A DNA stretch of 64,000 nt from Mycobacterium sp. SMC-4 (GTDB taxonomy: Bacteria; Actinomycetota; Actinomycetes; Mycobacteriales; Mycobacteriaceae), in NCBI RefSeq assembly GCF_025263265.1, contig NZ_CP079869.1:4526001-4590000 (forward strand). Direction: 5' to 3'. The position numbers and the translations under genes were made by a program. Shown in pieces: positions 2,299 to 61,837 of this stretch (its first letter is position 1; every line of letters starts with the position of its first letter). The notes beneath the pieces were generated by a model. That model saw only the letters and a list, made by a program, of their open reading frames with translations. It did no database searches and was not told the origin of the DNA.

Positions 2299-3202
2299 GA
2301 CCGGCCATCGCGAAGCTGTACCGGATGTGGTCACCATGTCCGTCGGGAACGACGGGGAACGTGAGGGTCTCGGAGCGGTCGCGAATCGTGTCGAGGTTGT
2401 TCGCGACATCACTCATGGTCCAGGCCCGCCGATACACGCCGGGCGATTCGGTGATCGCCGCGGTGGCCACCCGGCCGGCCAGAGCGACGAACATCTCGCC
2501 GGTCACCGCGCAGCTCTCGTGCGCCAGGTAGCCGACGACCGGCGCGACCAGGTCGGGGTCCATCGGCGGATAGGCCGAGGTGTCGATCCCTGCGGCCATC
2601 CTCGTCACCGCCGCGGGCACGATCACGTTGCTCGTGACGTTGTGCGCCGCTCCCTCCATTGCTGCCACGTTGCTCAATCCGATCACACCGGCCTTGGCGG
2701 CGGCGTAGTTGGCCACCTCGTAGTTGCCATAGAGACCACCGATCGACGACGTCAGCACGAGGCGTCCGTATCCGGCGTCGCACATCAGAGCGAACGCCGG
2801 ACGCACGACGTGAAAGGCGCCCCGTAGATGCACGTCGAGCACCGCGTCGAAGTCGTCGTAGGACATGCTCTTCAGGGGTGCCCGCCGAACGATCCCGGCG
2901 TTGTGCACCAGCACGTCGACCCTGCCGTAGCGCTGGACTGCCGCGTCGATGATCGCCTGTCCCCCTTCCGGGGCGGCCACCGATTCGGTGTTGGCGACTG
3001 CTGTGCCTCCGGCAGTGGTGATTTCGCGGACGACGTCGTGAGCGGGTCCTTCGTCTGCGCCGGCGCCGTCGAGCCCCCCGCCGAGGTCGTTGACGACCAC
3101 CGTGGCGCCTTGGGCAGCCAGCAGCAGCGCATAGGCACGGCCCAGGCCACGTCCGCCGCCGGTGACGACTGCGACCCGTCCGTCGAAGCGCAGGTCAGAC
3201 AC
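2291..3202 (-). CDS. SDR oxidoreductase, MFE-2 / 3-hydroxyacyl-CoA dehydrogenase-like
   Basis: Short-chain dehydrogenase of about 303 aa. The nucleotide site is VTGGGRGLGRAYA near residue 15, followed by VVNDLGGGLDG; this NDLGG stretch is characteristic of the (3R)-hydroxyacyl-CoA dehydrogenase domain of peroxisomal MFE-2 and bacterial relatives. The catalytic Tyr/Lys lie in YEVANYAAAKAGV. Start GTG at 3202 overlaps the monooxygenase stop through GTGTCTGA, the same coupling design as at the next junction; an upstream start at 3235 is less likely. Between a Baeyer-Villiger monooxygenase and a CoA-transferase it could oxidise a hydroxy-acid or hydroxyacyl-CoA intermediate. Confidence 0.8.
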   Translation of the reverse strand: MSDLRFDGRVAVVTGGGRGLGRAYALLLAAQGATVVVNDLGGGLDGAGADEGPAHDVVREITTAGGTAVANTESVAAPEGGQAIIDAAVQRYGRVDVLVHNAGIVRRAPLKSMSYDDFDAVLDVHLRGAFHVVRPAFALMCDAGYGRLVLTSSIGGLYGNYEVANYAAAKAGVIGLSNVAAMEGAAHNVTSNVIVPAAVTRMAAGIDTSAYPPMDPDLVAPVVGYLAHESCAVTGEMFVALAGRVATAAITESPGVYRRAWTMSDVANNLDTIRDRSETLTFPVVPDGHGDHIRYSFAMAGRG

Positions 3203-5054
3203 GGAGTTCCAGGCCTTCGAGATCACCGCTGTCACGCCATGCCGCGATCAACTCGTCGAAGGCGTAGAAGCCCGGTGAATAGAAGTCACCGAGGAAGGAC
3301 CCGTTACCTTCGGCACCGCCACGGCCCTCGTTGTTGTAATAGCCGGGTGTGCAAGACAATTCGAAGGCCGAGTTGTCGATCGCCAGCTCCCGGACGGTGG
3401 CGACCCAGTTGTCCTGTCCCTGCTGGCTGGGCTCGACCGTGGTCGCGCCACGGCTCTGGGCCTCGGCAATGATGTAGGCGATGTGCTTGGCCTGCTGCTC
3501 GAACATCGCGGTGGTGTTCGCCGAGACTCCGCCCTGGATGAACCCCATGAAGAACTGGTTGGGGAACCCGCGGCTGGTCATGCCGTGCAGCGTCTGGTAG
3601 CTGTCCTGCCAGTAGTCGAACAGTGAAAGGCCGTCCCGGCCGACGATGCGGTCGATGGCGTACCGGCGGCTGATCTCGGTGGAGATCTCGAATCCGCTGG
3701 CGAAGATCACGCAGTCGACCTCGTACTCGACGCCGTTGGCGACGACGCCCTTCTCGGTCAGTCTCTCCACGCCCTTGGATTCCGAGACGTCGACCAGCGT
3801 CACGTTCGGTCGGTTGAATGTGGCCAGATAGTGCTCACTGGAACACGGCCGCTTGCACATGAACCGGTAGTAGGGCTTGAGCATCTCAGCGGTCTGAGGA
3901 TCCTCGACGACGGCAGCCACCCGCCGCCGCAACCGTTCCATGATCTTGTAGTCTTCTTCTTCCCGGAACGCCATGATCTGTTCGATGGTCACCGCCGCGG
4001 GATCTTCGGCGCCGGCGATGCGCGCGGTCAGGTTGCGGCCGAGCTCGGTCCAGAAGTCGCACACCAGATCGGGTTCGCCGAATACCACGCCGACAAACGG
4101 CGACCAGTTGTGGAAGTTGCGTTTGCGTTCCTCTTGCCATCCCGGCTGCAGCGAGGCCGCCCACTGGGGGTCGGTGGGGGTGTTGACCCGCTCGTCGACC
4201 GATGACGGTGTCCGCTGGAAAACCAACAGCTGCTCGGCGTCTCGCCCCAGGTGCGGCACCAACTGGATGCCGGTCGCGCCGGTGCCGACGAGTGCAACCC
4301 GCTTGTCGGCCAACTTGTCCAGGCCACCATCGGGGCCACCGCCGGTGTAGTCGTAGTCCCAACGGGCCGAGTGGAACACGTGGCCACCGGCGTCTCGGTA
4401 CTCCTTGATTCCCGGGATACCGGGCAGCTTCGGACGGTTGTAGGAACCCTGGGCCATCACCAAGAACCGAGCCCGGATGTCGTCGCCGCGGTCGGTGCTG
4501 ATCCGCCAGCGCTGCGCGTCGTCGTCCCAGTGCAGTTCGCGCACCTGGGTGGAGAACAGCGCGCCGTCGTAGAGACCGAAGTGCTTACCGATGTTGCGGC
4601 AGTGTTCGAAGATCTCAGCGCCGTCGGCGAACTTCTTCGAGGGCATGAAGTCGAGCTCTTCGAGCAGCGGGATGTAGCAGTACGCGTCGTTGTCACACTG
4701 GATCCCGGGGAAACGGTTCCAGTACCAGACGCCCCCGAAGTCCCCGGCCATCTCGATGACACGGATTCCGGTCACACCCGACTTCTTCAAGTAGGCACCT
4801 GCCAGCAGCCCGGAGAAGCCGCCGCCGAGAATCACCACCTCGACGTCCTCGGTGATCGGATCACGCTCGGTCACCGTCGTGTACGGATCGACTTCGTAGA
4901 ACTCGGCGAAATCGCCCTCCAGTTCCAGGTACTGGTCGGCACCCTCTTCGCGTAAACGTTTGGCCCGCTCTTTGGCGTACTTCTCGCGCAGCGCCGGGAT
5001 ATCGATGTCGGTGGGCGTGTCAGTGGGCCCGCACGCGCTTTCGGTACTCGTCAC
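3195..5054 (-). CDS. Flavin-binding Baeyer-Villiger-type monooxygenase
   Basis: 619-aa FAD/NADPH class B monooxygenase, predicted to insert oxygen next to a ketone to give an ester or lactone. Visible motifs: FAD Rossmann site GGGFSG at residues about 78-82, the BVMO fingerprint-like FHSARWDYD at about 227-235, and the NADP site GTGATGIQ at 257-264. The N-terminal extension of about 70 residues before the FAD site matches longer BVMOs such as those acting on steroids or cyclic ketones. The start is GTG at 5054 with upstream GAAGGAGAG as ribosome site. It follows a Rieske oxygenase, fitting hydroxylation, oxidation to a ketone and ring expansion. The exact substrate is unknown. Confidence 0.85.
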   Translation of the reverse strand: MTSTESACGPTDTPTDIDIPALREKYAKERAKRLREEGADQYLELEGDFAEFYEVDPYTTVTERDPITEDVEVVILGGGFSGLLAGAYLKKSGVTGIRVIEMAGDFGGVWYWNRFPGIQCDNDAYCYIPLLEELDFMPSKKFADGAEIFEHCRNIGKHFGLYDGALFSTQVRELHWDDDAQRWRISTDRGDDIRARFLVMAQGSYNRPKLPGIPGIKEYRDAGGHVFHSARWDYDYTGGGPDGGLDKLADKRVALVGTGATGIQLVPHLGRDAEQLLVFQRTPSSVDERVNTPTDPQWAASLQPGWQEERKRNFHNWSPFVGVVFGEPDLVCDFWTELGRNLTARIAGAEDPAAVTIEQIMAFREEEDYKIMERLRRRVAAVVEDPQTAEMLKPYYRFMCKRPCSSEHYLATFNRPNVTLVDVSESKGVERLTEKGVVANGVEYEVDCVIFASGFEISTEISRRYAIDRIVGRDGLSLFDYWQDSYQTLHGMTSRGFPNQFFMGFIQGGVSANTTAMFEQQAKHIAYIIAEAQSRGATTVEPSQQGQDNWVATVRELAIDNSAFELSCTPGYYNNEGRGGAEGNGSFLGDFYSPGFYAFDELIAAWRDSGDLEGLELRV

Positions 5055-9061: not shown

Positions 9062-9798
9062 CCACCGCTGCTGGTGATCACCGCTACCTGCAGGTGGCGC
9101 GCACGCTGCGCAAGGAGATCGTGGACGGCGTGTACCCGGTGGGTTCCCAGCTGCCCACCGAACACGAGCTGTGCCAGCGTTTTGCGGTCAGCCGCTACAC
9201 GGTCCGCGAGGCGTTGCGTCGGCTGCGCGACGACAACCTCGTCGCGTCGCGGCCGCGGGCCGGCACCCTGGTGGTTCCCCGACCCAGCACCAACTCCTAC
9301 GCCCAAGATGTCATGTCGATCGACGACCTGCTGGCGTTCGCCCAGGGTGCGCAGTTCGCGATCGAGACGAACGCCACAGTGACCGTCGACGACGAGTTGG
9401 CCGCGCGCACCGGGCTGCCGCTGGCCACCGAATGGCTTGCGGTCAGCGGTTACCGACGCACCGATGACGACGCCACACCCATGTGCCGAACCGAGTACTA
9501 CATCAACCGCAGTTTCGCCGCGGTGGGCCGGCTGCTGCACCGCCACACCGGCCCCATTTTCCCACTCATCGAGGACCTCTTCGGCGTCAGTATCGTCGAG
9601 GTTCACCAGGAGATCTCGGCCGTCGTGCTGACCGCTGAGCTGGCCCGCGCGTTGAATGCCGAGCCGGCAGACGCGGCACTGCAGATGCAGCGCACCTACA
9701 CCACCTCCGACGCGGAGATCGCACAGGTCACCGTCAACACCCACCCGTCATCGAGATTCCGCCATGCGATGACGATGCGCCGGGTGCGTGACGCCTGA
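9058..9798 (+). CDS. GntR family regulator, HutC subfamily (wHTH + UTRA)
   Basis: 246 aa. The N-terminal winged helix contains the GntR signature: GVYPVGSQLPTEHEL, then FAVSRYTVREALRRL, and a wing at RPRAGTLVV, within about residues 8-72. The remainder (from about residue 85) is a UTRA-type ligand domain with EWLAVSGYRRTDD and the motif CRTEYYINRSFAAVG. The gene overlaps its neighbours on both sides (ATGA and TGATG), so it is co-transcribed with the cluster and probably autoregulated. Likely operators are the two related inverted repeats in the divergent promoter at 7351 and 7447. The inducer is presumably a pathway intermediate such as an acyl-CoA or acid. Confidence 0.85.
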   Translation: MTTAAGDHRYLQVARTLRKEIVDGVYPVGSQLPTEHELCQRFAVSRYTVREALRRLRDDNLVASRPRAGTLVVPRPSTNSYAQDVMSIDDLLAFAQGAQFAIETNATVTVDDELAARTGLPLATEWLAVSGYRRTDDDATPMCRTEYYINRSFAAVGRLLHRHTGPIFPLIEDLFGVSIVEVHQEISAVVLTAELARALNAEPADAALQMQRTYTTSDAEIAQVTVNTHPSSRFRHAMTMRRVRDA

Positions 9799-11300
9799 TG
9801 ACGACGACGCTGGCCGAAGCCCTCCACGAAGCAGCCGCCGACACCCCCGACCGGGTGCTGGTGTGCGACGATGCCACCGCCTTGACCGCCGCCCAATTAC
9901 TCGACCGGGCAACGGCGCTGGCACATGCGCTGTCCCGCCGCATGCCCACCGGCAGTGTCGTGTCCTTCGCCGTGCCGAACTGGCACGAGGCCTGCGTCAT
10001 CTATCTGGGTGCGACGTTGGCCGGGATGGTGGTCAATCCGATCCTGCCGTCCCTGCGCGACCACGAACTGGGGTTCATCCTCGCCGACGCCGACAGCCGG
10101 GCCATCTTCATCCCGCAGGCCTTCGCTGGTCACGACTACGCTGCGATGCTCGAACGCGTGGTCGCCGCCTCCGCACGCCCGCCGGAAGTCGTCGTCGTCC
10201 GCGGTGAAGCCGGTGAGCACACGGCCTTTGCCGACCTACTCGGCGAACCGCACGGCGGCGCGCTGCCCGACCTGGACCCGGCAGCCACCCGGATGATCCT
10301 CTACACCTCGGGCACCACAGGCCGACCCAAAGGCGTTATGCACAGCCATGAGTCGCTGGCGGCGCTGATTGCGCAGCTCGGAGAGTACTGGCGCATCGAC
10401 CCAGGTGACACTTTTCTGGTGCCCTCACCGATCGCTCACATCGGCGGCTCGATCTATTCCTTCGAATGCCCGTTGCTGCTGGGCACCCGGGCGGTGCTGA
10501 TGCCGCGCTGGGATGCCGACACTGCGGTCACGCTGATGCTCGAGCACCGCTGCACCCACATGGCCGGCGCCACGCCGTTTCTGGAGGGTCTGCTGGCAGC
10601 GGCCGAACGCGCCGGCACCCGCCTGCCCGATCTCAAGGTATTCATCTGCGGGGGCGCCTCGGTGCCCCCGTCACTGGTTCGGCGCGCCACGCAGTTCTTC
10701 GCTGCTGCCGAGGTCAGCAGGGTCTACGGGTCCACCGAGGTCCCGGTGACCACCATCGGGGCCCTCGGCGACGTCGACCGCGGCGCCGAGACCGATGGCC
10801 GCCCGGGCATCGCCGACATCCAGATCGTCACCGGCGAGATCCGGGCCCGCGGTCCACAGATGTTCACCGGGTATCTGCACGCCGAGGACAACCGCGACTC
10901 TTTCGACGAGGCAGGCTATTTCCGCACCGGGGATCTGGGCCGGTGGACCGACGACGGCTGCCTGGTGGTGACGGGCCGAGCCAAGGACCTCATCATCCGC
11001 AACGGTGAGAACATCTCACCCAAGGAAGTCGAGGACATCCTGGTGACACACCCGCAGATCGCCGAGATCGCAGTGGTCGGTGTGCCGGATGCGCGAACCG
11101 GGGAACGGGCGTGCGCAGCGATCGTGCCCGCCGGGTTACCCGGCCCCGACGTCGCCGAGCTCAAGGAGTTCCTGATGACGCGAGGGGTCGCGAAGTTCAA
11201 GATCCCCGAGCAGGTGACGCTCGTCGAGGCGCTGCCGAAGAACGACGCCGGCAAGGTTCTCAAGCACCAGCTCAAAGCAACTCTGACCAAGGAGTCCTGA
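9798..11300 (+). CDS. AMP-dependent acyl-CoA synthetase/ligase (FadD-like)
   Basis: 500-aa adenylate-forming enzyme that would activate a carboxylic acid as acyl-AMP and then acyl-CoA. The P-loop-like motif is YTSGTTGRPKGVMHSH (about residues 168-183); further motifs are VYGSTEVP, YFRTGDLGRW and the hinge/A8 region GRAKDLIIRNGENISPKEVE; the A10 lysine is in PKNDAGKVLKHQL. Start ATG overlaps the GntR stop as TGATG. A second ligase lies two genes on, so the cluster activates at least two different acids or one of them is a thioesterification helper. Confidence 0.88.
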   Translation: MTTTLAEALHEAAADTPDRVLVCDDATALTAAQLLDRATALAHALSRRMPTGSVVSFAVPNWHEACVIYLGATLAGMVVNPILPSLRDHELGFILADADSRAIFIPQAFAGHDYAAMLERVVAASARPPEVVVVRGEAGEHTAFADLLGEPHGGALPDLDPAATRMILYTSGTTGRPKGVMHSHESLAALIAQLGEYWRIDPGDTFLVPSPIAHIGGSIYSFECPLLLGTRAVLMPRWDADTAVTLMLEHRCTHMAGATPFLEGLLAAAERAGTRLPDLKVFICGGASVPPSLVRRATQFFAAAEVSRVYGSTEVPVTTIGALGDVDRGAETDGRPGIADIQIVTGEIRARGPQMFTGYLHAEDNRDSFDEAGYFRTGDLGRWTDDGCLVVTGRAKDLIIRNGENISPKEVEDILVTHPQIAEIAVVGVPDARTGERACAAIVPAGLPGPDVAELKEFLMTRGVAKFKIPEQVTLVEALPKNDAGKVLKHQLKATLTKES

Positions 11301-16076: not shown

Positions 16077-16685
16077 ATGGCACTGGTGGACAGGCCTTCC
16101 GCGCGGGATATCCGACGCCTACAGACCCGAGAACGGTTGTTCGGCGCGGCCGTGGCCGAGTTCTCTCGAACGGGTTTGGCTGCCGCCGACGTTCACGCGA
16201 TCGTGACGGCGGCCGGCGTTGCGCACGGTACATTCTTCTTCCACTTCCCCACCAAAGAGCATGTGTTGCTCGAGCTGGAACGGCGCGAAGAGCAGCGCAT
16301 CGCCAAAGAGCTGACCCGCTTCACCTCGACGAAACGGACCCTCGCCGCGACGTTCGCCGAATCGATCCGCCTGGTTCGTGGACTCGAGCGACGTCTCGGC
16401 GCTGTGTTGTTCAAAGACTTTCTTGCGCTGCATTTCTCTCCGACACGCCCACCGATCGACGAAAGCGCACACCATCCGGTGATCGTCGCGGTCGCCGAGG
16501 AAGTCGACAACTCGAGAGCACTCGGCCATGTCGACCCCGACGTCAATGCGCTGAACACCGCCGTGTTCTTCCTGCTCGGGCTCTACGCGCTGCTGACCAC
16601 GACCCACGAGTGGCCGGGCCAGCAGATGATGCTCGACGACTACGTGCACCGAACTCTTCGCAGCATCGGCGCCGAAACGGATTGA
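16077..16685 (+). CDS. TetR family transcriptional regulator
   Basis: 202 aa. The N-terminal HTH spans about residues 10-56 with RDIRRLQTRERLFGAAVAEF, then GLAAADVHAIVTAAGVAHGTFFFHFPTKEHVL, a textbook TetR recognition segment. The remainder is a helical ligand domain ending with a hydrophobic FFLLGLYALLTT helix. It is divergent from the SDR and directly upstream of the membrane-protein operon; its stop codon overlaps the -35 of that operon's promoter. It very likely represses both sides through 16027-16044 and 16698-16713. The ligand is unknown, presumably a hydrophobic substrate of the P450/membrane system. Confidence 0.88.
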   Translation: MALVDRPSARDIRRLQTRERLFGAAVAEFSRTGLAAADVHAIVTAAGVAHGTFFFHFPTKEHVLLELERREEQRIAKELTRFTSTKRTLAATFAESIRLVRGLERRLGAVLFKDFLALHFSPTRPPIDESAHHPVIVAVAEEVDNSRALGHVDPDVNALNTAVFFLLGLYALLTTTHEWPGQQMMLDDYVHRTLRSIGAETD

Positions 16686-16717: not shown

Positions 16718-17446
16718 ATGCGGATGCCTTCACCATCCGGTGGGAGCACCGGGGGCCGGACAGCCACTCCCCCCAAGGGCAGCGGTCTCGACGAGCACAT
16801 GGAGGCGTCAGCGCGGGCGCAACGGCAGGCCGACAAGTGGCTGATCTCGGGAAGCCTGCTGATCGGCACCGCGGTGCTCGGGATCTTCGGCCTGCCGCTG
16901 TTCCTGCGCGGGGTCTACCTGCTGCGCAAGGCGCAACATGACGGCCTGTCCGTGCGCCCGATGTTGGTCACCCTGATCGGCTACCTCGTGATCATCGACG
17001 CCGCGATCAACACCGTGGGCTGGGCCCTCGACCTCGTCGCCAACCACACGCTCCTGGCCCGAGTCCTGTTGAACGGGTGGGGACTGATGTTCGACGGCGG
17101 ATACTTCTGGCACTACAACGAACTATGGATCGGCGGCGCCGCAGGACCCGCCGAGAAGGCCATGGAAGTCGGCATGATCCTCACCGTCTTCACCATGCGC
17201 ATCGCCGCAGGCATCGGCTTTCTCCAGATGAAGCGCTGGGGCCATCAATGGATGATCATCACCTGCTGGATGGGCGTCGTCATCTGGTGCCTGTACGTGT
17301 TCAACATGACCCTGTATGCCGATGTCCGGTTCGCCGGCGTCGTACTCCCGGTTGTCGGATGGTGGCTCTACGACATCTTCTACATCACCCCCTTCCTCGC
17401 AATCCCGTACCTGCATTCGGTGAACCGGGAGATCTTCTCTGACTAA
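16718..17446 (+). CDS. Polytopic membrane protein of unknown family (paralogue A)
   Basis: 242 aa with about six hydrophobic segments (roughly 41-70, 81-108, 113-128, 149-170, 176-200, 205-232). It is a close paralogue of the protein at 20140. From residue 101 to the end nearly every residue is shared, including GWALDLVANH, FDGGYFWHYNELW, MKRWGHQW, YADVR and WWLYDIFYITPFLAIPYLH. Conserved polar residues in or beside membrane segments (D94, H110, D126, H132, E135, H176, D202, D219, H233) could bind metal. It is not recognisably AlkB (no HxxHH boxes), PmoA/PmoC, cytochrome oxidase subunit III or EBP. First gene of a long operon with NorQ/NorD-like activators. Function unknown; a membrane metalloenzyme subunit is my inference. 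Confidence 0.8.
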   Translation: MRMPSPSGGSTGGRTATPPKGSGLDEHMEASARAQRQADKWLISGSLLIGTAVLGIFGLPLFLRGVYLLRKAQHDGLSVRPMLVTLIGYLVIIDAAINTVGWALDLVANHTLLARVLLNGWGLMFDGGYFWHYNELWIGGAAGPAEKAMEVGMILTVFTMRIAAGIGFLQMKRWGHQWMIITCWMGVVIWCLYVFNMTLYADVRFAGVVLPVVGWWLYDIFYITPFLAIPYLHSVNREIFSD

Positions 17447-17537
17447 ATGATGACTGCACTCACTGACGCGAATCAACATATCAACGACCCACGAGACTGG
17501 AGGACCGATGACAAACCCAAGCGATGAGGAGAACTGA
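17447..17537 (+). other. Two possible mini-ORFs between paralogue A and the 35-aa peptide
   Basis: Directly after the TAA of paralogue A a 26-codon frame runs 17447-17527 (starts MMTALTDANQ), but it has low GC at third positions and a poor ribosome site. A 9-codon frame, MTNPSDEEN (17508-17537), has a good GGAGG site and ends 1 bp before the 35-aa gene. Either could be a leader peptide or chance. Confidence 0.2.
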
Positions 17538-17538
17538 C

Positions 17539-17646
17539 GTGGCCGGCTGGATCTTTGAAATACTGCGCTATGTGGCCGCTTGGGGCGGAGCGGGACTGCT
17601 TATCTGGTTTTGGTACTGGATGTTCTCCAACCTCGGCACCTTCTGA
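17539..17646 (+). CDS. 35-aa single-helix membrane micro-protein (A)
   Basis: GTG start at 17539 with GAGGAGAA upstream; stop TGA at 17644-17646. The peptide starts AGWIFEILRYVAAWGG and continues through LLIWFWYWMF to end SNLGTF. It is one tryptophan-rich membrane helix with almost no soluble part. A second such micro-protein (43 aa, 20012) sits beside the other polytopic paralogue, so each large membrane protein is paired with a tiny one. Such peptides are typical accessory subunits of respiratory and other membrane enzyme complexes. Too short for routine gene callers; repetition of the arrangement is the main evidence that it is real. Confidence 0.65.
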   Translation: MAGWIFEILRYVAAWGGAGLLIWFWYWMFSNLGTF

Positions 17647-17660
17647 GTGCGGAGCACCCA

Positions 17661-19193
17661 TTGTCCGAACTCTCCGATGCGCATGCGCTGGTCATCGAGC
17701 GCAGCTGCTCGTTGACCGCCCTGGTACTGAGCGAGGGCCGTCGCACGGGTGCCCGTCTGGTCAGCGGGCAGCACCGTGCCTTCGGTCTGAGTTCGATGCT
17801 CGACACCGTGCATGTCCCCTACCCGGTGACACACCGCGAGTGGACCCGCCGGACGCTGACATGCGGGATCGCCCTTCAATGTTCGCCCTCCAAGGACCGG
17901 CTCACCGACTATCGGCTCAATGAGCTGTCCGGGCGTGAGTTGAGTGCGCTTGTGCTCGTCGAGGCCGCCGTCGCCCTCGGTTGGGTGGCCGACAACTGGC
18001 CGGGTCTGCTCCCCGAGATTCGACGTCTGCTCCCCGAGCTGGACAGCGCACCGGCCGACCTGGACGCCAAGGACATACTCAATCGCGCCGTCACGATGGC
18101 TCGCACGAAGCAGACCTTCGTCATCGACCCCCTCCTGGGTAGCTTGCCGCGGGCATACACGATGCCTCAGGGCCTGTCCGACAAGCTGCGCCGCTCATTC
18201 GGGCGCCTGCCCTGGACGACGAATCAGAAGCGGGCACCGCAGCCGCATTCCGTCCCCGCCGGCGGTGACGGCGGCGTGCGCAATCCCAACCTGCCGCCAC
18301 CGAGCCGCCCACAGGACAACGATCTCGACATCACTCCGGACCACCGCCCCGGTATCCCGTATCCGGAGTGGAACTCGTGGAACGAGAGCTTCATGCCCAA
18401 CCATGTCGCCGTGATCGAGCGAGCGCACAGCAGTAGTTTCGCGCCACCCCGCCCCATTGCCGTCGACATCCGCAAGTGGTTCGAGAAGAACACCCACCGC
18501 GCGATGATGAACCGGCTGGAAGACGGATCCGACATCGACATCGACCAGTACGTCGGTCATTACATCGACGTGATCACCGGCGAGGCGGCCGAACCGAGAA
18601 TCTTCCGCGAGCTGCTGCCCGCCAGCCGTGACGTGACGACGGCGCTGCTCCTCGACGGTAGCTCGTCGCTCGGGGTGCACGGAGGCTCGATCTTCAAGCT
18701 CGAACTGGCCTGCGCCGACGCGCTGTCGCGCGCCATGACCGCCGCCCGGGAGCGGCACGGCATCTTCACCTTCACCGGCAACACCCGCCATCGCGTCGAG
18801 GTCACCTGCCTCAAGGACTTCACCGATCGCCGGTTCGTCCCCCCCGGAAGCCTGGGTCTGGCGACCGGCGGATACACCCGGCTCGGTGCGCCGCTGCGCC
18901 ACATGACCAGCCGCCTGCTCGCCCAGCCGAGCGAGCGACGGCTCTTGATCATCATCGGCGACGGACTGATCTCCGATGAGGGTTACGAGGGGCGATACGC
19001 GTGGGCCGACGCCGCTCACGCCGTCGAGGAGGCCAACGACGCCGGCGTCTCCATCTACTACGTCGGCGTCGGCCCCACCCGGGTCGACCCCCTTCCCGAA
19101 GTCTTCGGGCCACGACGATCTCAGCGGATCCGCCGCGTCGAAGACCTGCCCCGGGTACTGGCCCACGTCCACAGAGAGCTGGTGAGCGCATGA
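17661..19193 (+). CDS. VWA-domain protein, NorD/CoxE-like
   Basis: About 510 aa. The C-terminal von Willebrand A domain carries a MIDAS: D332-x-S-x-S in LLLDGSSSLG, the Thr in GGYTRLGAPL and the Asp region IIGDGLISDEGY. The N-terminal 300 residues are hydrophilic and unassigned. Proteins of this layout (NorD, CoxE, CbbO) work with a cognate MoxR-type AAA+ ATPase, here the next gene, which overlaps by ATGA. The best in-frame start after the 35-aa gene is TTG 17661 (GGAG 7 nt upstream); no ATG or GTG fits. Role by analogy: adaptor that brings the ATPase to a metalloenzyme during activation or metal insertion. Confidence 0.8.
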   Translation: MSELSDAHALVIERSCSLTALVLSEGRRTGARLVSGQHRAFGLSSMLDTVHVPYPVTHREWTRRTLTCGIALQCSPSKDRLTDYRLNELSGRELSALVLVEAAVALGWVADNWPGLLPEIRRLLPELDSAPADLDAKDILNRAVTMARTKQTFVIDPLLGSLPRAYTMPQGLSDKLRRSFGRLPWTTNQKRAPQPHSVPAGGDGGVRNPNLPPPSRPQDNDLDITPDHRPGIPYPEWNSWNESFMPNHVAVIERAHSSSFAPPRPIAVDIRKWFEKNTHRAMMNRLEDGSDIDIDQYVGHYIDVITGEAAEPRIFRELLPASRDVTTALLLDGSSSLGVHGGSIFKLELACADALSRAMTAARERHGIFTFTGNTRHRVEVTCLKDFTDRRFVPPGSLGLATGGYTRLGAPLRHMTSRLLAQPSERRLLIIIGDGLISDEGYEGRYAWADAAHAVEEANDAGVSIYYVGVGPTRVDPLPEVFGPRRSQRIRRVEDLPRVLAHVHRELVSA

Positions 19194-19996
19194 CGTACAA
19201 CCACGACTACTTCGCGAACGGCAATGAAGTTCAGCTGTTCGAACAGGCCTATCGACAGCGACTGCCGGTGATGCTCACCGGGCCCACCGGCTGCGGAAAG
19301 ACCCGGCTGGTCGAGCACATGGGCACCCTGTTGGGCCGCCCCGTGGTGACCATCAGCTGCCACGATGATCTGACCAGCTCCGATCTGGTGGGCCGGTTCA
19401 TCGTCACCGGTGGTGACGTCACCTGGACCGACGGGCCACTCACCCGGGCGGTCAAAGCCGGCGCAATCTGCTATCTCGACGAAGTCGTAGAAGCCCGGCA
19501 TGACTCGCTGGCCGTGCTGCATTCCCTGACCGACCACCGACGCACCCTCTATCTCGATCGGGCGGGTGAAGTCGTGCAGGCACCGGAAACGTTCATGCTC
19601 GTCGCGTCGTACAACCCGGCGTATCGCAGCTCGCTCAAGGAGCTCAAACCGTCGTTTCGGCAGCGCTTCGTCACGCTGCCGATGCATTACCTTCCCCCTG
19701 AGCGTGAAGCCGAGGTGATCGTCGCCGAGGCGGGCGTCGGGTTGCCGACCGCGCAACGGCTGGTCCGGTGCGCCACGGCGGTCCGAACGGCCGACGAGGC
19801 GTTCCACTTCGAGCCGCCCTCGACCCGGGTTCTGGTCACCGCGGCACAGCTGATCGCCGCTGGTGCCACCGAACTGGAGGCCGCGCAGGCCTGTGTGTTG
19901 GCACCGCTATCGAGCGATGGCGCCGTCTCCGAGGGTCTGCAAGAGGTCGCGGCGGCCGCTCTCACCATTTCCGACAGCCCGAATCCACACCGCTAG
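19190..19996 (+). CDS. MoxR-type AAA+ ATPase, NorQ/CbbQ/NirQ-like
   Basis: 268 aa, the usual length of NorQ/CbbQ. Walker A GPTGCGKT at 31-38, Walker B ICYLDEV at about 93-99, sensor-1 region ASYNPAYRSSLKELKPSFRQRF at 139-160 with the arginine finger; SYNP...LKPSFRQRF is typical for this subfamily. In known systems (nitric-oxide reductase, Rubisco activation, CO dehydrogenase maturation) such ATPases pair with a VWA protein to remodel or metallate a target. Here no Nor, Rubisco or Cox target is nearby; the only candidates are the two polytopic membrane proteins and their micro-proteins that flank the pair. The start overlaps the VWA stop. Confidence 0.87.
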   Translation: MTYNHDYFANGNEVQLFEQAYRQRLPVMLTGPTGCGKTRLVEHMGTLLGRPVVTISCHDDLTSSDLVGRFIVTGGDVTWTDGPLTRAVKAGAICYLDEVVEARHDSLAVLHSLTDHRRTLYLDRAGEVVQAPETFMLVASYNPAYRSSLKELKPSFRQRFVTLPMHYLPPEREAEVIVAEAGVGLPTAQRLVRCATAVRTADEAFHFEPPSTRVLVTAAQLIAAGATELEAAQACVLAPLSSDGAVSEGLQEVAAAALTISDSPNPHR

Positions 19997-20011
19997 AAAG
20001 GAATCACCCAG

Positions 20012-20143
20012 ATGGTCGATCAGAAGGAACGAAACCGCAAGAAGGCGCTGATCATCTTCCAGTTAGTAATCTACGGATACCTGCTGACGATGTTCCTCAT
20101 TCAGCTCTACATGTCGTTCACCCGGGGCTGGTGGGACCTGTGA
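20012..20143 (+). CDS. 43-aa single-helix membrane micro-protein (B)
   Basis: ATG 20012 with AAAGGA upstream. The peptide has a basic N-terminus (VDQKERNRKK), one membrane helix (ALIIFQLVIYGYLLTMFLIQLYM) and a short tail ending TRGWWDL, so the predicted topology is N-in, C-out. Its stop overlaps the GTG start of polytopic paralogue B (GTGA), strong evidence for translation. It is unrelated in sequence to micro-protein A but occupies the equivalent place beside a large paralogue. Probably a small subunit of the same complex. Confidence 0.72.
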   Translation: MVDQKERNRKKALIIFQLVIYGYLLTMFLIQLYMSFTRGWWDL

Positions 20144-20874
20144 ACTTCCCGACACCGAAAGGAAAGTCGCAAGGCGGCGCGACAACCTCTGCTGAGCCCG
20201 CCGGCTCGGTGGGCTTGGAGGAGCACCACGAGCAGTCCCGCCTGGCGCAGAGGCGCGCCGACAGATGGATGATCGCCGGCGCAGCCCTCATGGGCGCGTG
20301 GGTTCCCGGAGTTATCGGATTCCCCATCTTCATGCGCGGAGTCTGGCTACAACGCCAGGCGCTGCGAGCGGGTTACTCGGTCCGCCCGATGATCGTCACC
20401 TTGATCGGCTACCTCGTCCTGATCGACGGCATGCTCAACAGCCTCGGCTGGGCGCTGGACCTGGTCGCCAACCACACGCTGATCAACAGGGTGCTGATGG
20501 TTGGGTGGGGTGCGTTGTTCGACGGCGGCTACTTCTGGCACTACAACGAACTGTGGATGGGCGGAGCCGCGGGACCGGGCGAGAAGTCCATGGTGTTCGG
20601 GATGATCCTCACCGTCTTCGCGATGCGGTGTGCCGCGGCGATCGGATTCCTGCAGATGAAGCGCTGGGGCCACCAGTGGATGATCATCACCTGCTGGATG
20701 GGCGTGCTCATCTGGTGCCTGTACGTGTTCAACATGACGCTCTACGCCGACGTGCGATACGCCGGTGTCGTCTTCCCGGTCATCGGCTGGTGGCTCTACG
20801 ACATCTTCTACATCACCCCCTTCCTCGCAATCCCGTATCTGCACACGGTCAATCGCGAGATCTTCACCGACTGA
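20140..20874 (+). CDS. Polytopic membrane protein of unknown family (paralogue B)
   Basis: 244 aa, from GTG 20140. It aligns with paralogue A at an offset of two residues. The C-terminal 140 residues are nearly identical, with the same His/Asp/Glu set (H112, D128, H134, E137, H178, D204, D221, H235); the N-terminal 40 residues differ. Silent-site identity is also high in places, so duplication is recent or maintained by conversion. The motif GLEEHHEQSRLAQRRADRW precedes the first membrane segment, and paralogue A has the similar DEHMEASARAQRQADKW. The two could form a heterodimer with the micro-proteins. Enzyme, channel or transporter cannot be decided from sequence; the NorQ/NorD-like neighbours favour a metalloenzyme. 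Confidence 0.8.
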   Translation: MNFPTPKGKSQGGATTSAEPAGSVGLEEHHEQSRLAQRRADRWMIAGAALMGAWVPGVIGFPIFMRGVWLQRQALRAGYSVRPMIVTLIGYLVLIDGMLNSLGWALDLVANHTLINRVLMVGWGALFDGGYFWHYNELWMGGAAGPGEKSMVFGMILTVFAMRCAAAIGFLQMKRWGHQWMIITCWMGVLIWCLYVFNMTLYADVRYAGVVFPVIGWWLYDIFYITPFLAIPYLHTVNREIFTD

Positions 20875-20891
20875 GGCAATGAGGAGCAATT

Positions 20892-21320
20892 GTGACGTCA
20901 ACCCCGCAGACACCTGAGAGCACCGAAGAGCAGAACCTTCCTCCGGGTACCACGCCCTACTACGCCCGGATGCACAAGTGGATCAAGCGCGCAGTACTGG
21001 TGTGTCTGGTCGCGTTGGTCATCGAGGGTGCGTTCACGCTGCCGTTCATGGCGGTGTACTACGGCTACCCGACCCTGAGTCTCACCCAGATCTGCAGCGA
21101 GTTGCTCAAGGTCCGCTATTCCGACGACGAGTTGGAGTGCCAGGTGCCGTATCCGGCGTTCGGACCGCCCGAAGGTGCCGAGGGTAAGGACACCGCGCGC
21201 GACGAATGGGGTATCCAGCCTGTTCCCCAGTACGATCGGATCGGATTCCGCGAGCTGGTGCGCAGACACGAAGAGCGCGAGGCGCGTCGAGCCGCTGAGC
21301 AACACAGCGCCAATCCGTGA
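20892..21320 (+). CDS. Single-span membrane protein with extracytoplasmic C-terminal domain
   Basis: 142 aa from GTG 20892 (GAGGAGC upstream). Residues 1-30 are polar and end in RMHKWIKR; one hydrophobic helix spans about 33-58; the C-terminal 85 residues hold two cysteines (C68, C83) and a charged end. The positive-inside rule places the C-terminal domain outside the cytoplasm, where the cysteines could form a disulfide or bind a cofactor. No family recognised. It lies 17 bp after paralogue B and overlaps the next dehydrogenase (GTGA), so I take it as a further component of the membrane system. Confidence 0.7.
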
Positions 21321-22372
21321 CCTACCGGGTCGTGCAGTGGACCACCGGCAATGTGGGCAAGAAGTCGGTGCACGCCGTTGCGGCCAACTCCGAGCTGGAA
21401 CTCGTCGGATGTTATGCCTGGTCCGCCGACAAGGTCGGCGTCGACGTGGGTGAACTGTGCGGTGTCGCGCCGCTGGGGGTGCGCGCCACCGACGATGTCG
21501 AGGCGCTGCTGGCACTGCATCCCGACTGCGTCGTGTACAACCCGATGTTCGCCGATGTCGACGATCTGGTGCGCATCCTCGAGCGCGGCATCAACGTGGT
21601 GACCACATCGGAGTTCATCAACGGCCGGGGGCTGGGCCCCGATCGGCAACGTCTGCTCGACGCCGGCCACCGCGGCGGTGCGACGATCTTCGGCAGCGGC
21701 ATCAATCCCGGTTTCATCCAGTTGTTCGCGATCGTCACCGCCGGCCTCTCCGACCGAGTTGACAAGATCAGCATCCTGGAATCCTTCGACACCACCATCT
21801 ACGACTCACCTGCCACCGAGATCCCGATGGGTTTCGGCTATTCGGTCGACGACCCCACGCTGCCCGCCGTCACCGAGAAGGGGTCCGCGATCTTCCGGGA
21901 GGCGGTGCTGCTGGTCGCCGATGCCCTCGGCGTCGCACTCGACGAGGTTCGCTGCGCCGCCGAATACGCAGAAACCACCGAGGATCTACCACTGCCCGGC
22001 GACTGGATCATCGAAAAGGGTTGCGTCGCCGGCATCGACGTACGGTGGAGCGGCATCGTCGACGGTCGTGAGGTCATCGAGATCCGCGGCGTGTGGACCA
22101 AGGGCCAAAGTCTTCAACCGCCATGGTCGACGGCGTTCGGGTACACCGTCACCGTGCACGGCCGTCCCACCATCACCAGCACGCTGCGCTTCGAGCCGCC
22201 TCCCGACTTCGTCGCCGAATCGATCGAGGACTTCGTCATGCTCGGCTTGACCATCACGGCCATGCCCGCCATCACCGCCATCCCCGTGGTCGTCGCGGCA
22301 CCACCGGGCATCGCGACCTACACCGACCTCCCCCTGTTGCTCCCCCGCGGAGTTCTGAACACCACCAGCTGA
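21317..22372 (+). CDS. DapB-like NAD(P)-dependent dehydrogenase (paralogue 2 of 3)
   Basis: 351 aa, start GTG overlapping the previous stop. Rossmann segment [19 protein letters not shown], then [20 protein letters not shown] and [15 protein letters not shown], as in the homologue at 14104. The C-terminal region with [19 protein letters not shown] is shared with actinobacterial proteins loosely called dihydrodipicolinate reductase. It is too long for DapB and sits among P450s, so it is probably a catabolic or biosynthetic oxidoreductase that uses NAD(P)H. Co-transcribed with the membrane system. Confidence 0.65.
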
Positions 22373-22382
22373 AGGAGTCACC

Positions 22383-23441
22383 GTGCACGACAAGACCTAT
22401 CGCGTCATCCAATGGATGACAGGCGACGTCGGCCAGGCAGGACTGCGACACTTCATCGACAATTCCGTCTACGAACTCGTCGCCGTGCTGGTCCACAACA
22501 AGGACAAGGTGGGCAGGGACGCCGGTGAACTCGTCGGCGTCGCACCGGTCGGCCTGGCCGCCACCGACGACGTCGAGGCGGTCATCGCGACCGAGGCCGA
22601 CTGCGTGCTCTACACGCCGGTGATCATGGACGTCGACACCGTGTGCCGACTTCTGCAGTCAGGCAAGAACGTCGTCACCACGAGCGGGTTCTTTCATCCC
22701 TCACCGGACTTCGCGGAGCCTGGACAGTCGATCCGCGTCGCATGCGAAGAAGGTGGCACCTCTTTTCACGGGGGAGGCATCCACCCGGGATACGCGGGCG
22801 ATATCCTGCCGCTCACACTTGCCCGGGTGATGAGTCGGGTCGACTCCATCAACGTCTACGAGGTGGTCAACATCCTCGAAGACGCGCCGATCGACCACGT
22901 CGACTGGATGGGCTTCGGCAAAGACAAGGACAAATTTCTCGCCGAGCCGACGATCCTGGGTCTCGGTCTGCCGTTCTTTGCCCAGTCGATGCACATGATC
23001 GCCGACGGCCTGGGCGTCACCATCGATGAAGTGACTGCCGCCGAAATAGCGGTAGCGACGGCGGCACAGGACATCCCCCACGAGGGAGGTGTGATCCCGG
23101 CCGGTACGGTCGCCGCACAACGGCACGAGTGGACGGCGTGGGTCGGCGGTCAGCCGCTCATCGTCTTTCACGCGATATACGTGAGCGCCCCGCCGGAACA
23201 GCTGGAGCCACCCTGGAACTGGGGCAACACTAGGTACGAGATCGTCATCGACGGAGACCCACCGACCGAAATGACATTGCAGGGCGTGCGACGACCGGAC
23301 GGGACCATCGACCACCCGGGGTACACCTGGACGGCGATGGGCGCCGTCAACGCGATCCCCGACGTCTGTGACGCGGCGCCCGGGTGGGTGACCCACCACG
23401 ACCTCGGGATGGTCCGACCCCGCGGTCTGGTGCGAACATGA
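22383..23441 (+). CDS. DapB-like NAD(P)-dependent dehydrogenase (paralogue 3 of 3)
   Basis: 352 aa, GTG 22383 with AAGGAG at the right distance. N-terminal YRVIQWMTGDVGQAGLRHF and ELVAVLVHNKDKVGRDAGEL match the other two paralogues; the C-terminal half is more divergent (GGGIHPGYAGDILPLTLARV). Tandem placement with 21317 suggests a heteromeric enzyme or two successive steps. The stop overlaps the next start by ATGA. Confidence 0.65.
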   Translation: MHDKTYRVIQWMTGDVGQAGLRHFIDNSVYELVAVLVHNKDKVGRDAGELVGVAPVGLAATDDVEAVIATEADCVLYTPVIMDVDTVCRLLQSGKNVVTTSGFFHPSPDFAEPGQSIRVACEEGGTSFHGGGIHPGYAGDILPLTLARVMSRVDSINVYEVVNILEDAPIDHVDWMGFGKDKDKFLAEPTILGLGLPFFAQSMHMIADGLGVTIDEVTAAEIAVATAAQDIPHEGGVIPAGTVAAQRHEWTAWVGGQPLIVFHAIYVSAPPEQLEPPWNWGNTRYEIVIDGDPPTEMTLQGVRRPDGTIDHPGYTWTAMGAVNAIPDVCDAAPGWVTHHDLGMVRPRGLVRT

Positions 23442-23863: not shown

Positions 23864-25035
23864 CCGGCCTCGACGCGGTGGCCACGGTCCGCTACGAGGA
23901 CCTCCCGATGACACGGGACCGGGGTGTCGGGTGGTCCATGCTGCGCGAACTCGGCCCGGTCCTGCGCAGCGGTGACGGCTGGTACTACTTCACCCCGCGC
24001 GACGACGTCCTCGCCGCGCTTCGTGACCCCCAGGTGTACTCGTCGCGCACCTCCTACGACGAGATGATCAGCCCGGTTCCGCTGGTTCCCTTGGGTTTCG
24101 ATCCACCCGAGCACACCCGCTACCGACGGATACTGCACCAGCATTTCAGTCCGCAGACGCTGAGTGCGCTGCTTCCCACGCTGCAGCGGCAGGCGATCGA
24201 CATCATCGACGACATCGCCGACCGTCGCGAATGCGAAGTCATCGCCGACCTCGCGGTCCGCTATCCGTCACAGGTGTTCCTGACGCTCTTCGGGCTTCCG
24301 CTCGAGGACCGAGACCGTCTGGTGGCGTGGAAGGACGCCATCATCGCAGTCAGCCTGGCCACCGAGACGGACAGCGTCGACCTGACACCGGCCGCCGAAC
24401 TGTTCGCATACCTCACCGAGGCTGTTGCCGAGCAGCGGCGTTCGCCGCGCGAGGGGATCCTGTCCGACCTGTTGCACCGTGAGGAACCGCTCGATGACGC
24501 CGAAGCGACCGGACTGTCACTGGTCTTCGTCCTCGCCGGTCTGGACACCGTCGCCGCGACCATCGGCATGGCGTTACTGGATCTGGCTCGACGCCCCGAT
24601 CTTCAAGCTTGGTTGCGCGAAAGGCCGTATCTGATAACGGGTTTCGTCGAGGAGATCATCCGACTCGAACCGGCAGCGCCGATCCTCGGCCGCATCACCA
24701 CCCGGCCGGTGATCGTCGCCGAGGTTCATCTCCCGGCCGGATCGCAGGTTCGCCTGCCACTCGGCGCGATCAACCGCGACGGCAGCGACGCTTACTCGAC
24801 CGATGACCTGGTGCTGGACGGCAGGCTGCACAAGCACTGGGGGTTCGGCGGCGGGCCCCTACTTTGCCTCGGCGCGCACCTGGCGCGAATGGAGCTGAAA
24901 CTCGTCGTGGCCGAGTGGTTGTCGCGCATCCCCGACTTCGGTCTGGCCGACGGTTACATCCCGGAGATCACCTGGCCGTCGGCAACATGCGCCCTGCCGT
25001 CACTGCCCCTGCGGCTGGGAAACACATCACCATGA
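23860..25035 (+). CDS. Cytochrome P450 with atypical heme loop
   Basis: 391 aa soluble bacterial P450. The I-helix has AGLDTVAATIG (226-236) with the acid/Thr pair; ExxR is EEIIRLEP; PPEHTRYRR is the usual early motif. The heme-thiolate Cys is C336 in FGGGPLLCLG. In the consensus FxxGxHxC the residue two before Cys is normally His or Arg contacting a heme propionate; here it is Leu, preceded by Pro. All other signature elements are intact, so the gene looks functional but unusual. Overlaps both neighbours by ATGA. The redox partner is not encoded nearby. Substrate unknown; a hydrophobic polycyclic is plausible. Confidence 0.85.
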   Translation: MTGLDAVATVRYEDLPMTRDRGVGWSMLRELGPVLRSGDGWYYFTPRDDVLAALRDPQVYSSRTSYDEMISPVPLVPLGFDPPEHTRYRRILHQHFSPQTLSALLPTLQRQAIDIIDDIADRRECEVIADLAVRYPSQVFLTLFGLPLEDRDRLVAWKDAIIAVSLATETDSVDLTPAAELFAYLTEAVAEQRRSPREGILSDLLHREEPLDDAEATGLSLVFVLAGLDTVAATIGMALLDLARRPDLQAWLRERPYLITGFVEEIIRLEPAAPILGRITTRPVIVAEVHLPAGSQVRLPLGAINRDGSDAYSTDDLVLDGRLHKHWGFGGGPLLCLGAHLARMELKLVVAEWLSRIPDFGLADGYIPEITWPSATCALPSLPLRLGNTSP

Positions 25036-26255
25036 CCGACCGTGCCACCAACATCTTCGACGCCGACCTGCCCACCCTGACCTACGGGCTCACCGACCCG
25101 CCGCAAAAGATCTATCCGCAGTTCCGCACCGCCCAACAGGTGGCACCCGTGGCCTTGGGACCGATAGGCCCCGAGATCCTGTCGTATGAGATGGCGCGCA
25201 CCGTGCTGCGCGACCCGCGCTTCCTGATTCCGCCGGGCATCCACCTGTCCGCGCACGGCATCACATCAGGACCGCTGTGGGACAGGGTGACTCGCAGCAT
25301 CCTGAACATGGAGGGCGAGGAGCATCGGCGACTCCGTGGACTGGTGTCACGCGCGTTCACACCGCGGGCCACCGCCGGCCTACACGACACCATCCACACG
25401 GTGATCAACGAGCTCATCGACACCGCGATCGAAAAACGCGGCCCGTGCGAGTTCGTCGCCGACGTCGCCCGGCCCTACCCGATCCCCATCATCTGCGCGC
25501 TTCTCGGGGCGCCCCGCGAGGACTGGCAGCAGTTCTCGCGATGGGCCGAAGACATCTTCAAGATCGTCAGTTTCGACTGCGACCTGGTGGTCGAGACGCC
25601 GGTCGTGCTGTCGGCATGGGATGCCTTCGACGCCTACATCGACACGATGATCGCCCAGCGGCGTACCCAGCTGACCGACGACCTGCTCTCCGAGCTCATC
25701 CGTGCCGAGGACGCCGGCGACCGACTCGACGCCGCCGAGGTGCGCATGCTGGCGTTCAGCATCCTGCTCGCCGGGACCGACACCACCCGCAGCCAGCTCG
25801 CCGCGTCGATGCAGGTGCTCTGCGAGCACCCCGACCAGTGGGCACTGCTGCGCCGGCAGCCCGAGCTTTCGATGCGCGCCGTCGAGGAGACGATGCGGCA
25901 CTCCCCGTCGATGTGCAGCACCGTGCGTGCCGCCCGTGAAGATGTCACCGTCGGTGGGTTCACCTTCCCTGCAGAGACGTTCGTCGTCGTCAACACCTTC
26001 GCCGCCAACCGGGACCCCACGGTCTACGACGATCCCCAGCGGTTCGACCTCGCCCGCGACGCACCACCGGCGATCTTGACGTTCGGCGGAGGTGTGCACT
26101 ACTGCTTGGGTGCGAATCTGGCCAGGCTCGAACTCAGCGAGGCGCTGAAGATCCTGGCCGAGCGGGTGCCCCGCGCCCGATGTGTGGGTGACGTGCCGTG
26201 GAAACCACTGCTGGGTCTGAGCGGACCCACCAGCCTGCCGATGGAGTTGTGCTGA
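25032..26255 (+). CDS. Cytochrome P450 (canonical)
   Basis: 407 aa. I-helix AGTDTTRSQLA, ExxR in EETMRHSP, and a normal heme loop FGGGVHYCLGANLAR with Cys358. EGEEHRRLRGLVSRAFTPR is the typical C-helix region. The start ATG 25032 overlaps the previous P450 stop; the longer frame from 24864 lies within that gene and is rejected. Two P450s in tandem suggest successive hydroxylations of one substrate or a heteromeric pair. The stop overlaps the ERG2-like start (TGATG). Confidence 0.9.
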   Translation: MTDRATNIFDADLPTLTYGLTDPPQKIYPQFRTAQQVAPVALGPIGPEILSYEMARTVLRDPRFLIPPGIHLSAHGITSGPLWDRVTRSILNMEGEEHRRLRGLVSRAFTPRATAGLHDTIHTVINELIDTAIEKRGPCEFVADVARPYPIPIICALLGAPREDWQQFSRWAEDIFKIVSFDCDLVVETPVVLSAWDAFDAYIDTMIAQRRTQLTDDLLSELIRAEDAGDRLDAAEVRMLAFSILLAGTDTTRSQLAASMQVLCEHPDQWALLRRQPELSMRAVEETMRHSPSMCSTVRAAREDVTVGGFTFPAETFVVVNTFAANRDPTVYDDPQRFDLARDAPPAILTFGGGVHYCLGANLARLELSEALKILAERVPRARCVGDVPWKPLLGLSGPTSLPMELC

Positions 26256-26824
26256 TGGGCTACCGCATCGACCCCGATGTCCTGCACGGTGTGGCCGCGA
26301 AAGCGGCCGGTCTGAGCGCCGACACCGACGAACTGGTCATGCACGCGGTGGAACTGCTCGCCGACGAATACCCCGGTCTGATCGACCCGACGCCGGGCCG
26401 CTGGGTCGGCAGCAAGGCCGGAGGCGTGCTCGGCAAGGTACGGTTCCTGTACTTCAGCGCACGGGAATACGTGGTGATCTTCGGCTCCCCCACCGGTACA
26501 CAAGGATTCTCCGGGCGCTACAAGCACGTCGACATCCACAAGTTCCTGCTCGCCGGCCGGATCGACTCCTACGACCTGGAGTCCGATGACACGAAACCCC
26601 TGCCGCCCCTGCTGCCCGGCGAGCGCACCTGCCTGCAGAGAGGCCATGCGCGCGGCCTGACGATCGCACCGGGTTCCTGGCACATCGAGTACGGTCGCGG
26701 CGCCGTGGTCACCACGCTGCCGTTCGCGATGGTAGACACGTTGATGTTGTCGCTCGAACTCGAATCGGTGCGCCGGTCGACGGCCGAGTTCACCTCGCTG
26801 ATGCGTCGTCGTCTGGGCCGCTGA
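26255..26824 (+). CDS. ERG2 / sigma-1 receptor family protein (C-8 sterol isomerase-like)
   Basis: 189 aa. It has the hallmarks of the eukaryotic ERG2/sigma-1 receptor family in order: the segment SAREYVVIFGSPTGTQGFSGRY (68-89; compare SEYVLLFG...GHSGRY in sigma-1), LLPGE (119-123), and GSWHIEYGRG (140-149) followed by TLPFAMVDTL. E145 in the EYGRG motif corresponds to the ligand-binding Glu of sigma-1. The N-terminal membrane helix of sigma-1 is absent. Fungal ERG2 shifts a sterol double bond; a bacterial member next to P450s suggests isomerisation or binding of a sterol- or terpenoid-like intermediate. Family call by recognition of motifs; reaction inferred. Confidence 0.75.
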   Translation: MGYRIDPDVLHGVAAKAAGLSADTDELVMHAVELLADEYPGLIDPTPGRWVGSKAGGVLGKVRFLYFSAREYVVIFGSPTGTQGFSGRYKHVDIHKFLLAGRIDSYDLESDDTKPLPPLLPGERTCLQRGHARGLTIAPGSWHIEYGRGAVVTTLPFAMVDTLMLSLELESVRRSTAEFTSLMRRRLGR

Positions 26825-61073: not shown

Positions 61074-61837
61074 TGGGCGCCCCCACCCTGGCCGTATGGA
61101 AGTTCACCTCCTGCGACGGTTGCCAACTCAGCCTCCTGGACTGCGAGGACGAGCTGCTGACATTGGCCGAAGAAGTTCACATCGCGCACTTCCTGGAGGC
61201 GTCCAGCGCGGTGACACCGGGGCCCTACGAGGTGTCGCTGGTGGAGGGCTCGATCAGCACACCCGAGGAGCAGCAGCGCATCGCCGAGATCAGGGAGCAG
61301 TCCGCCATCCTGGTGGCCATCGGCGCCTGCGCCACCCACGGGGGGATCCAGGCACTGCGCAACTTCGCCGACGTCGCCGACTATCTGTCGGTGGTCTACG
61401 CTTCACCGCAATACATTTCGACGCTCGAAACCTCCACCCCGATCTCGGCGCACGTGCCGGTCGACTACGAGCTACGCGGCTGCCCGATTGATCGTCACCA
61501 GCTCCTCGGCACCCTGGCCGCGCTGCTGGCCGGCCGCAAACCCGACCTTCCCGACACCAGTGTCTGCACCGAGTGCAAACGCAGAGGCACGACCTGCATC
61601 ACGGTGTCCCAGGGCATCGCCTGCCTGGGTCCGGTCACCCATGCCGGCTGCGGAGCGCTGTGCCCGACCTACGGGCGCGGCTGCTTCGGTTGTTTCGGAC
61701 CCATGACCGCGCCCAATGTGGGTGCCCTGCTGCCGATCCTGCGGATCAACGGCATGCCGACCGACGCCATCGACCGCGCCTTCGCCACCTTTGCCGCGGC
61801 GGCCCCCGAGTTCGCCGAACGCAGTCGCGATGAGTGA
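61073..61837 (+). CDS. hyhS: Group 3b [NiFe]-hydrogenase small subunit (HyhS)
   Basis: 254 aa, the group 3 size without Tat signal, so cytosolic. Proximal cluster in [20 protein letters not shown] and RGCPI; distal cysteines in [11 protein letters not shown] and [21 protein letters not shown] 61073 at a TGATG junction. Transfers electrons from the NiFe site. Confidence 0.9.

Follow-up and report, generated by a model that had tools for sequence, protein, structure and literature searches.

The best described relatives of the system presented here are the NorQ and NorD proteins of denitrifying bacteria. According to excerpts of PMC9976466 and PMC13036017, NorQD inserts iron into nitric oxide reductase, and a metal-ion-dependent adhesion site (MIDAS) has been proposed to bind its target. 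A MoxR ATPase from a mycobacterial CO dehydrogenase cluster is treated in PMC12657314. We have analyzed a 64,000 nt stretch of the genome of Mycobacterium sp. SMC-4 (NZ_CP079869.1, positions 4,526,001 to 4,590,000), hereafter the window. It contains a cassette of seven genes (positions 16718 to 21320 of the window), in which a NorQ/NorD-like pair is encoded together with membrane proteins of a different type. Our results suggest that these EXPERA-like membrane proteins are a new kind of client for NorQ/NorD-type chaperones. Judging by titles and the opening lines of abstracts, no description of this cassette was found in the literature searched.

All seven genes are on the plus strand, at the positions and in the order proposed in the initial annotation. 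The first is A, a 242 amino acid EXPERA-like membrane protein (16718..17446), followed by pep1, a single-span peptide of 35 amino acids (17539..17646). Then come a NorD-like VWA protein of 510 amino acids (17661..19193, with an inferred TTG start) and a NorQ-like, MoxR-class AAA+ ATPase of 268 amino acids (19190..19996). The cassette ends with pep2, a 43 amino acid single-span peptide (20012..20143), B, a second EXPERA-like membrane protein of 244 amino acids (20140..20874), and C, a single-span protein of 142 amino acids with two Cys after the span (20892..21320). Translational coupling looks likely, since the VWA and ATPase genes, pep2 and B, and C and the next gene overlap by four bases. 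A and B are 71% identical, and 120 of their last 140 aligned residues agree (86%): These C-terminal parts had been called nearly identical, which is slightly too strong.

The cassette is conserved far more strongly than chance would allow. We obtained 283 relatives of B from a scan of public genomes, and the best 80, with 80–93% identity, were kept as loci. Judging by the nearest matches, the window groups with Mycolicibacterium. In 79 of them all seven genes are present in the same order, both small peptides included (scored at E < 0.05, a stricter limit drops pep2 of locus L079). The remaining locus, L069, starts inside the VWA gene at a contig edge; pep1 is found in all 79 loci which reach it. 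The spacing between A and pep1 is variable, at least 600 bases in 32 of 79 loci. In five of eight loci inspected, this gap (681–831 bases) holds a gene for a TetR-family regulator. In the genus to which G001 (the genome with locus L001) belongs, a profile of A/B finds matches in 63 of 118 sampled genomes, in a few of them by fragments. Two of 249 genomes match in the class to which G124 belongs, one being G124 itself and the other a weak hit. Among the 120 protein entries listed, the names are hypothetical protein, uncharacterized protein or, in the case of UniRef names, emopamil-binding or EXPERA domain-containing protein.

The assignment of the ATPase and the VWA protein to the NorQ/NorD type, made in the initial annotation, is sound. 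The ATPase is over the Pfam cut-off for AAA_5 (PF07728, E = 2.5e-37) and CbbQ_C (PF08406, E = 5.6e-21), its best match among solved structures is NorQ (9qh4, E = 1.1e-77), and all 80 ATPases have the Walker A motif GPTGCGKT and a CYLDE box. The VWA protein matches PF00092 with 24.9 bits, just above the cut-off of 23.8. The DxSxS part of the MIDAS motif is found in 79 of 80 VWA proteins by a loose pattern, and in its usual setting in 72. As in the NorQ/NorD systems of denitrifiers, a NorD-related VWA domain is present and a membrane protein is encoded beside the pair. There are also differences. NorD (9qhd_G) aligns only to residues 229–509 of the VWA protein (phmmer, E = 3.9e-30), and the N-terminal part is either different or too diverged to match. 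The membrane protein is EXPERA-like, and no cNOR (NorB/NorC), Rubisco or CO dehydrogenase is found among the 47 open reading frames (ORFs) of the window scanned with Pfam, in agreement with the absence of classical clients noted initially. The ATPase is 49–54% identical to three NorQ-like plasmid copies, two of which adjoin cytochrome c and a heme-copper-oxidase-like gene, while the third does not.

A MoxR/VWA pair might also form part of a conflict or anti-phage system. A PADLOC search gives weak matches of the ATPase to IetA, RtcR and mad8, but these cover parts of the P-loop domain, no match at E ≤ 0.01 is found for A, the VWA protein, B or C, and the genes around the cassette are metabolic. 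We consider this explanation extremely unlikely.

To see whether the ATPase accompanies A/B, we have surveyed 200 Mycobacteriales genomes, scoring at most 12–14 candidates per genome in each search. ATPases were counted at E ≤ 1e-30, which leaves out the more distant MoxR ATPases that exist. A/B proteins are found in 16 genomes (33 copies) and close ATPases in 20 genomes (45 copies). All 16 genomes with A/B also contain the specific ATPase (76–92% identical), and, by their coordinates, 31 of the 33 A/B copies have an ATPase of this kind on the same strand, less than 5 kb away. This co-inheritance of ATPase and membrane protein supports a chaperone–client relationship. A/B proteins which are widespread without the pair would have spoken against such a relationship, but in this sample they amount to two of 33 copies and one plasmid relative.

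The two exceptions are loci L140 and L141, which consist of pep2, B and C, with no match to A, the VWA protein or the ATPase; L140 also has a pep1-like ORF, by eye. The gene content of these solitary clusters suggests that pep2, B and C, probably together with pep1, form the core of the system. Their genomes contain the pair elsewhere, and the ATPase and VWA protein may act in trans in these cases. The plasmid relative is found in Mycobacterium branderi plasmid pJCM12687 (L171, 7729–8690) and is 35% identical to A/B; no annotated ATPase is present within 8 kb, in a search which covered the plasmid alone. Upstream of this gene lies an 82 amino acid ORF with two hydrophobic stretches, which, on visual inspection, resembles a fusion of a peptide with the span of C.

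The ATPases themselves can be classified by their partners. A quick tree was made from 42 selected sequences, with the root placed by choice on the three NorQ-like plasmid copies. In this tree, the ATPases linked to A/B fall on one side of a branch (12 sequences, Shimodaira–Hasegawa-like approximate likelihood ratio test, SH-aLRT, 99), the long-branched sequence from G124 included. Those linked to AveC-like proteins, discussed below, fall on one side of another branch (25 sequences, SH-aLRT 96), together with one linked to an RPE65-type protein. Since both types of ATPase separate in the tree, the type of partner goes with the ATPase lineage.

Regarding the membrane proteins, A and B are paralogs of about six helices, likely with an EXPERA-like core, a fold supported by structure prediction. 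The AlphaFold model of B has a predicted local distance difference test (pLDDT) score of 89.6, and its best VIA matches are EBP and TMEM97. EBP is the human sterol isomerase, not an oxygenase, and TMEM97 is the sigma-2 receptor. No transporter or channel family, which might have pointed to a different function, gives a confident match. Compared with the members of the EXPERA family (EBP, TMEM97/sigma-2 and TM6SF), A/B are predicted to share the helix arrangement, and they have conserved acidic residues and a weak similarity to PF05241. They differ in being bacterial, in having two additional helices at the N-terminus that the TMEM97 match lacks, and in being accompanied by single-span partners and an ATPase pair. 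Similarity at the sequence level is low: A and B have no PF05241 match in the Pfam scan, only 17 of 90 homologs have a weak one (best E 8.1e-5), and the scores shown, 19.2–19.3 bits, are under the gathering cut-off of 25.7. A PF05241 scan did not match any of 198 genomes, although the sample included a genome with A/B.

An alignment of 90 A/B homologs, 51 close and 39 distant, shows which residues are kept. In B, the acidic residues D96, D107, D128 and E148 are conserved in 89, 89, 88 and 89 of the 90 sequences, respectively. Others kept in at least 88 include R82, P83, N100, W104, Y131, N136, K149, W176 and Y195. Excerpts of PMC4263179 indicate that the acidic residues 80 and 108 of EBP have been proposed as catalytic, and that D108 of EBP and D56 of TMEM97 are the most conserved acidic position. 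D128 of B, with Y131 three residues further on, resembles D108/Y111 of EBP; they are matched by offset only, because the structure comparison gave only alignment ranges. Such a carboxylate-rich set is compatible with acid–base chemistry, and suits a metal site less naturally.

A different function was proposed in the initial annotation: a metallo-oxygenase or reductase with a fixed set of His, Asp and Glu ligands. The eight residues proposed are present in both A and B and are kept in 40 to 51 of the 51 close homologs. As a set, however, they are only conserved at this short distance: In the 39 distant homologs, other residues mostly stand at the positions of H110, E135, H176, D219 and H233 (A numbering). 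H132 is replaced by Asp in 29 of these, H176 by Leu in 34, and H233 by Tyr in 32, with His in only 5. D202 stays Asp in 16, and D126, which corresponds to D128 of B, is the sole residue of the set that is generally kept (37 of 39). The column of H110 contains mostly Asp or Asn in distant homologs, but 33 of the 39 have a His in the column just before it.

A metalloenzyme could still be reconciled with these data. The conserved carboxylates, together with a nearby His, would coordinate one or two metal ions, and these would be inserted by the pair to give a membrane oxygenase or reductase. This His is found at position 112 in 50 of 51 close homologs and one column earlier, at 111, in 33 of 39 distant ones, and a small alignment shift could unite both. 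The iron insertion described for NorQ and NorD, which provide the closest solved structures, fits this possibility, as do the P450 and Rieske genes in the region. However, no single column holds a His throughout the family, EBP and TMEM97 are the best matches in the structure comparison, and the AveC-like proteins, the other family linked to these ATPases, have no invariant His either in 26 sequences. We find a metalloenzyme rather doubtful, although a metal site composed largely of carboxylates is conceivable. The link of a NorQ/NorD-type pair with membrane proteins, with no classical client among the ORFs scanned, is supported, while the fixed set of metal ligands is not.

A/B could instead be of the TMEM97 type and carry or sense a lipid or sterol without catalysis, with the pair keeping them assembled. 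TMEM97 is among the best matches, the matched structure 7mfi is titled as cholesterol-bound, and C and the two peptides resemble accessory subunits. But many polar residues are kept in distant homologs, as in an active site, and most neighboring genes code for enzymes, so we regard a mere carrier as unlikely. It shares ground with the binding half of the explanation that we prefer, given below; the weights given to both overlap, because lipid binding features in the two of them.

AveC-like proteins (PF17198) provide a second case of membrane proteins found beside a related ATPase, and the stretches retrieved contain a VWA gene as well. Of the 45 ATPase genes in the survey, 28 adjoin AveC-like proteins, and only one adjoins neither these nor A/B. 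The AveC-linked ATPases are 47–53% identical to that of the cassette. Unlike the case of A/B, 21 of 53 AveC-like matches, some of them weak or partial, have no such ATPase nearby, while 32 do. Streptomyces AveC carries out spiroketalization and dehydration, according to an excerpt of PMC13303154. A moderate AlphaFold model of an AveC-like protein gives no EXPERA match in the structure comparison. We have also considered A/B as AveC-like proteins and rejected it: They have no Pfam match to PF17198, and hhalign aligns 30 columns with an E value of 0.096 and 29 columns with an E value of 0.14.

The AveC-linked pairs (L122–L124, L142–L144 and L146–L169) fall into two broad groups by their surroundings: Aldehyde dehydrogenase (ALDH) and P450 genes are frequent in the first, and Rieske or ALDH genes in the second. 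L141 has an AveC-like gene (9521–10573) about 2 kb from its solitary cluster, diverged to 26% identity. Other settings are also seen. In L120 (10510–11493) and L170 (G124), a NorQ-like ATPase has an RPE65-type carotenoid-oxygenase-like protein as its neighbor; some ORFs look ferredoxin-like by eye, and the stretch has no VWA match. In L145 (7308–10153), a VWA protein comes after another NorQ-like ATPase, and neither AveC-like proteins nor A/B are matched.

The cassette is preceded by a TetR-family regulator (16077..16685, PF00440), matched in 78 of 80 loci. Downstream, on the same strand, there are two proteins similar to DapB and 2,4-diaminopentanoate dehydrogenase (21317..22372 and 22383..23441, both PF19328, matched in 37 and 51 of 80 loci), a 159 amino acid ORF, putatively a VOC protein, a CYP143-like P450 (23860..25035, PF00067; CYP143 structure 8amo, E = 6e-142), a second P450 which overlaps it (24864..26255, PF00067, start uncertain) and an ERG2/sigma-1-receptor-like protein (26198..26824, PF04622, start uncertain; 5hk1, E = 1.1e-17), matched in 27 of 80 loci. 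From A to 23441, genes are separated by 10 to 92 bases or overlap by four, a spacing which fits a single transcript. Short-chain dehydrogenase/reductase, AMP-binding, Rieske, flavin-containing monooxygenase (FMO) and CoA-transferase genes are found upstream, on both strands. Further away in the window are an FMO-like protein (3195–5054), which matches neopentalenolactone/pentalenolactone D synthase strongly, with 690.6 bits, although the cut-off is 1100, and a 4Fe-4S dicluster protein and a nickel-dependent-hydrogenase-like protein (58620–59762 and 61716–63122).

These neighbors raise the question of whether the pair acts on some other protein encoded in the region, for example a P450, with A/B only lying nearby. 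P450 queries match in 55 and 43 of 80 loci (flanks reach 8 kb or a contig edge), but for the first P450 many of these hits reach only about 30% identity; P450 genes are also near many AveC-linked ATPases. However, both P450 and DapB-like genes vary (the latter with matches in up to 56 loci for three queries), whereas A/B keep their place beside the ATPase in 31 of 33 copies, and the VWA and ATPase genes are inserted between A/pep1 and pep2/B/C. A client other than A/B is, in our opinion, quite improbable. The ERG2 family includes a eukaryotic sterol isomerase. The presence of EXPERA-like and ERG2-like proteins, two families with eukaryotic sterol isomerases, in one locus is suggestive only. 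The locus might encode an oxidative route for a hydrophobic compound, perhaps sterol- or terpenoid-like, in which A, B and C would carry out a membrane step.

The best explanation, to which we give an even chance, is that the NorQ/NorD-like pair acts on an EXPERA-like membrane complex with a sterol- or isoprenoid-like substrate. A and B would assemble in the membrane with the single-span C, pep1 and pep2, and D96, D107, D128 and E148 of B may take part in acid–base chemistry on such a molecule, or in its binding. The AAA+ ring, with the VWA protein as adaptor, would dock on this complex through the MIDAS site. The complex would then be assembled, opened or activated at the expense of ATP, in the way that NorQD acts on nitric oxide reductase. 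More generally, NorQ/NorD-type MoxR/VWA machines of Actinomycetota may not be limited to metal insertion into oxidoreductases, and may also assemble or drive small non-redox membrane enzymes of two unrelated kinds, EXPERA-like and AveC-like, a tentative proposal which we hold with somewhat less conviction. If these suggestions are correct, there would be a new class of clients for MoxR/VWA chaperones, and a bacterial relative of the EBP/sigma-2 fold encoded beside an ERG2/sigma-1-like gene: The cassette would provide a tractable model for an AAA+ ring acting on a small membrane enzyme.
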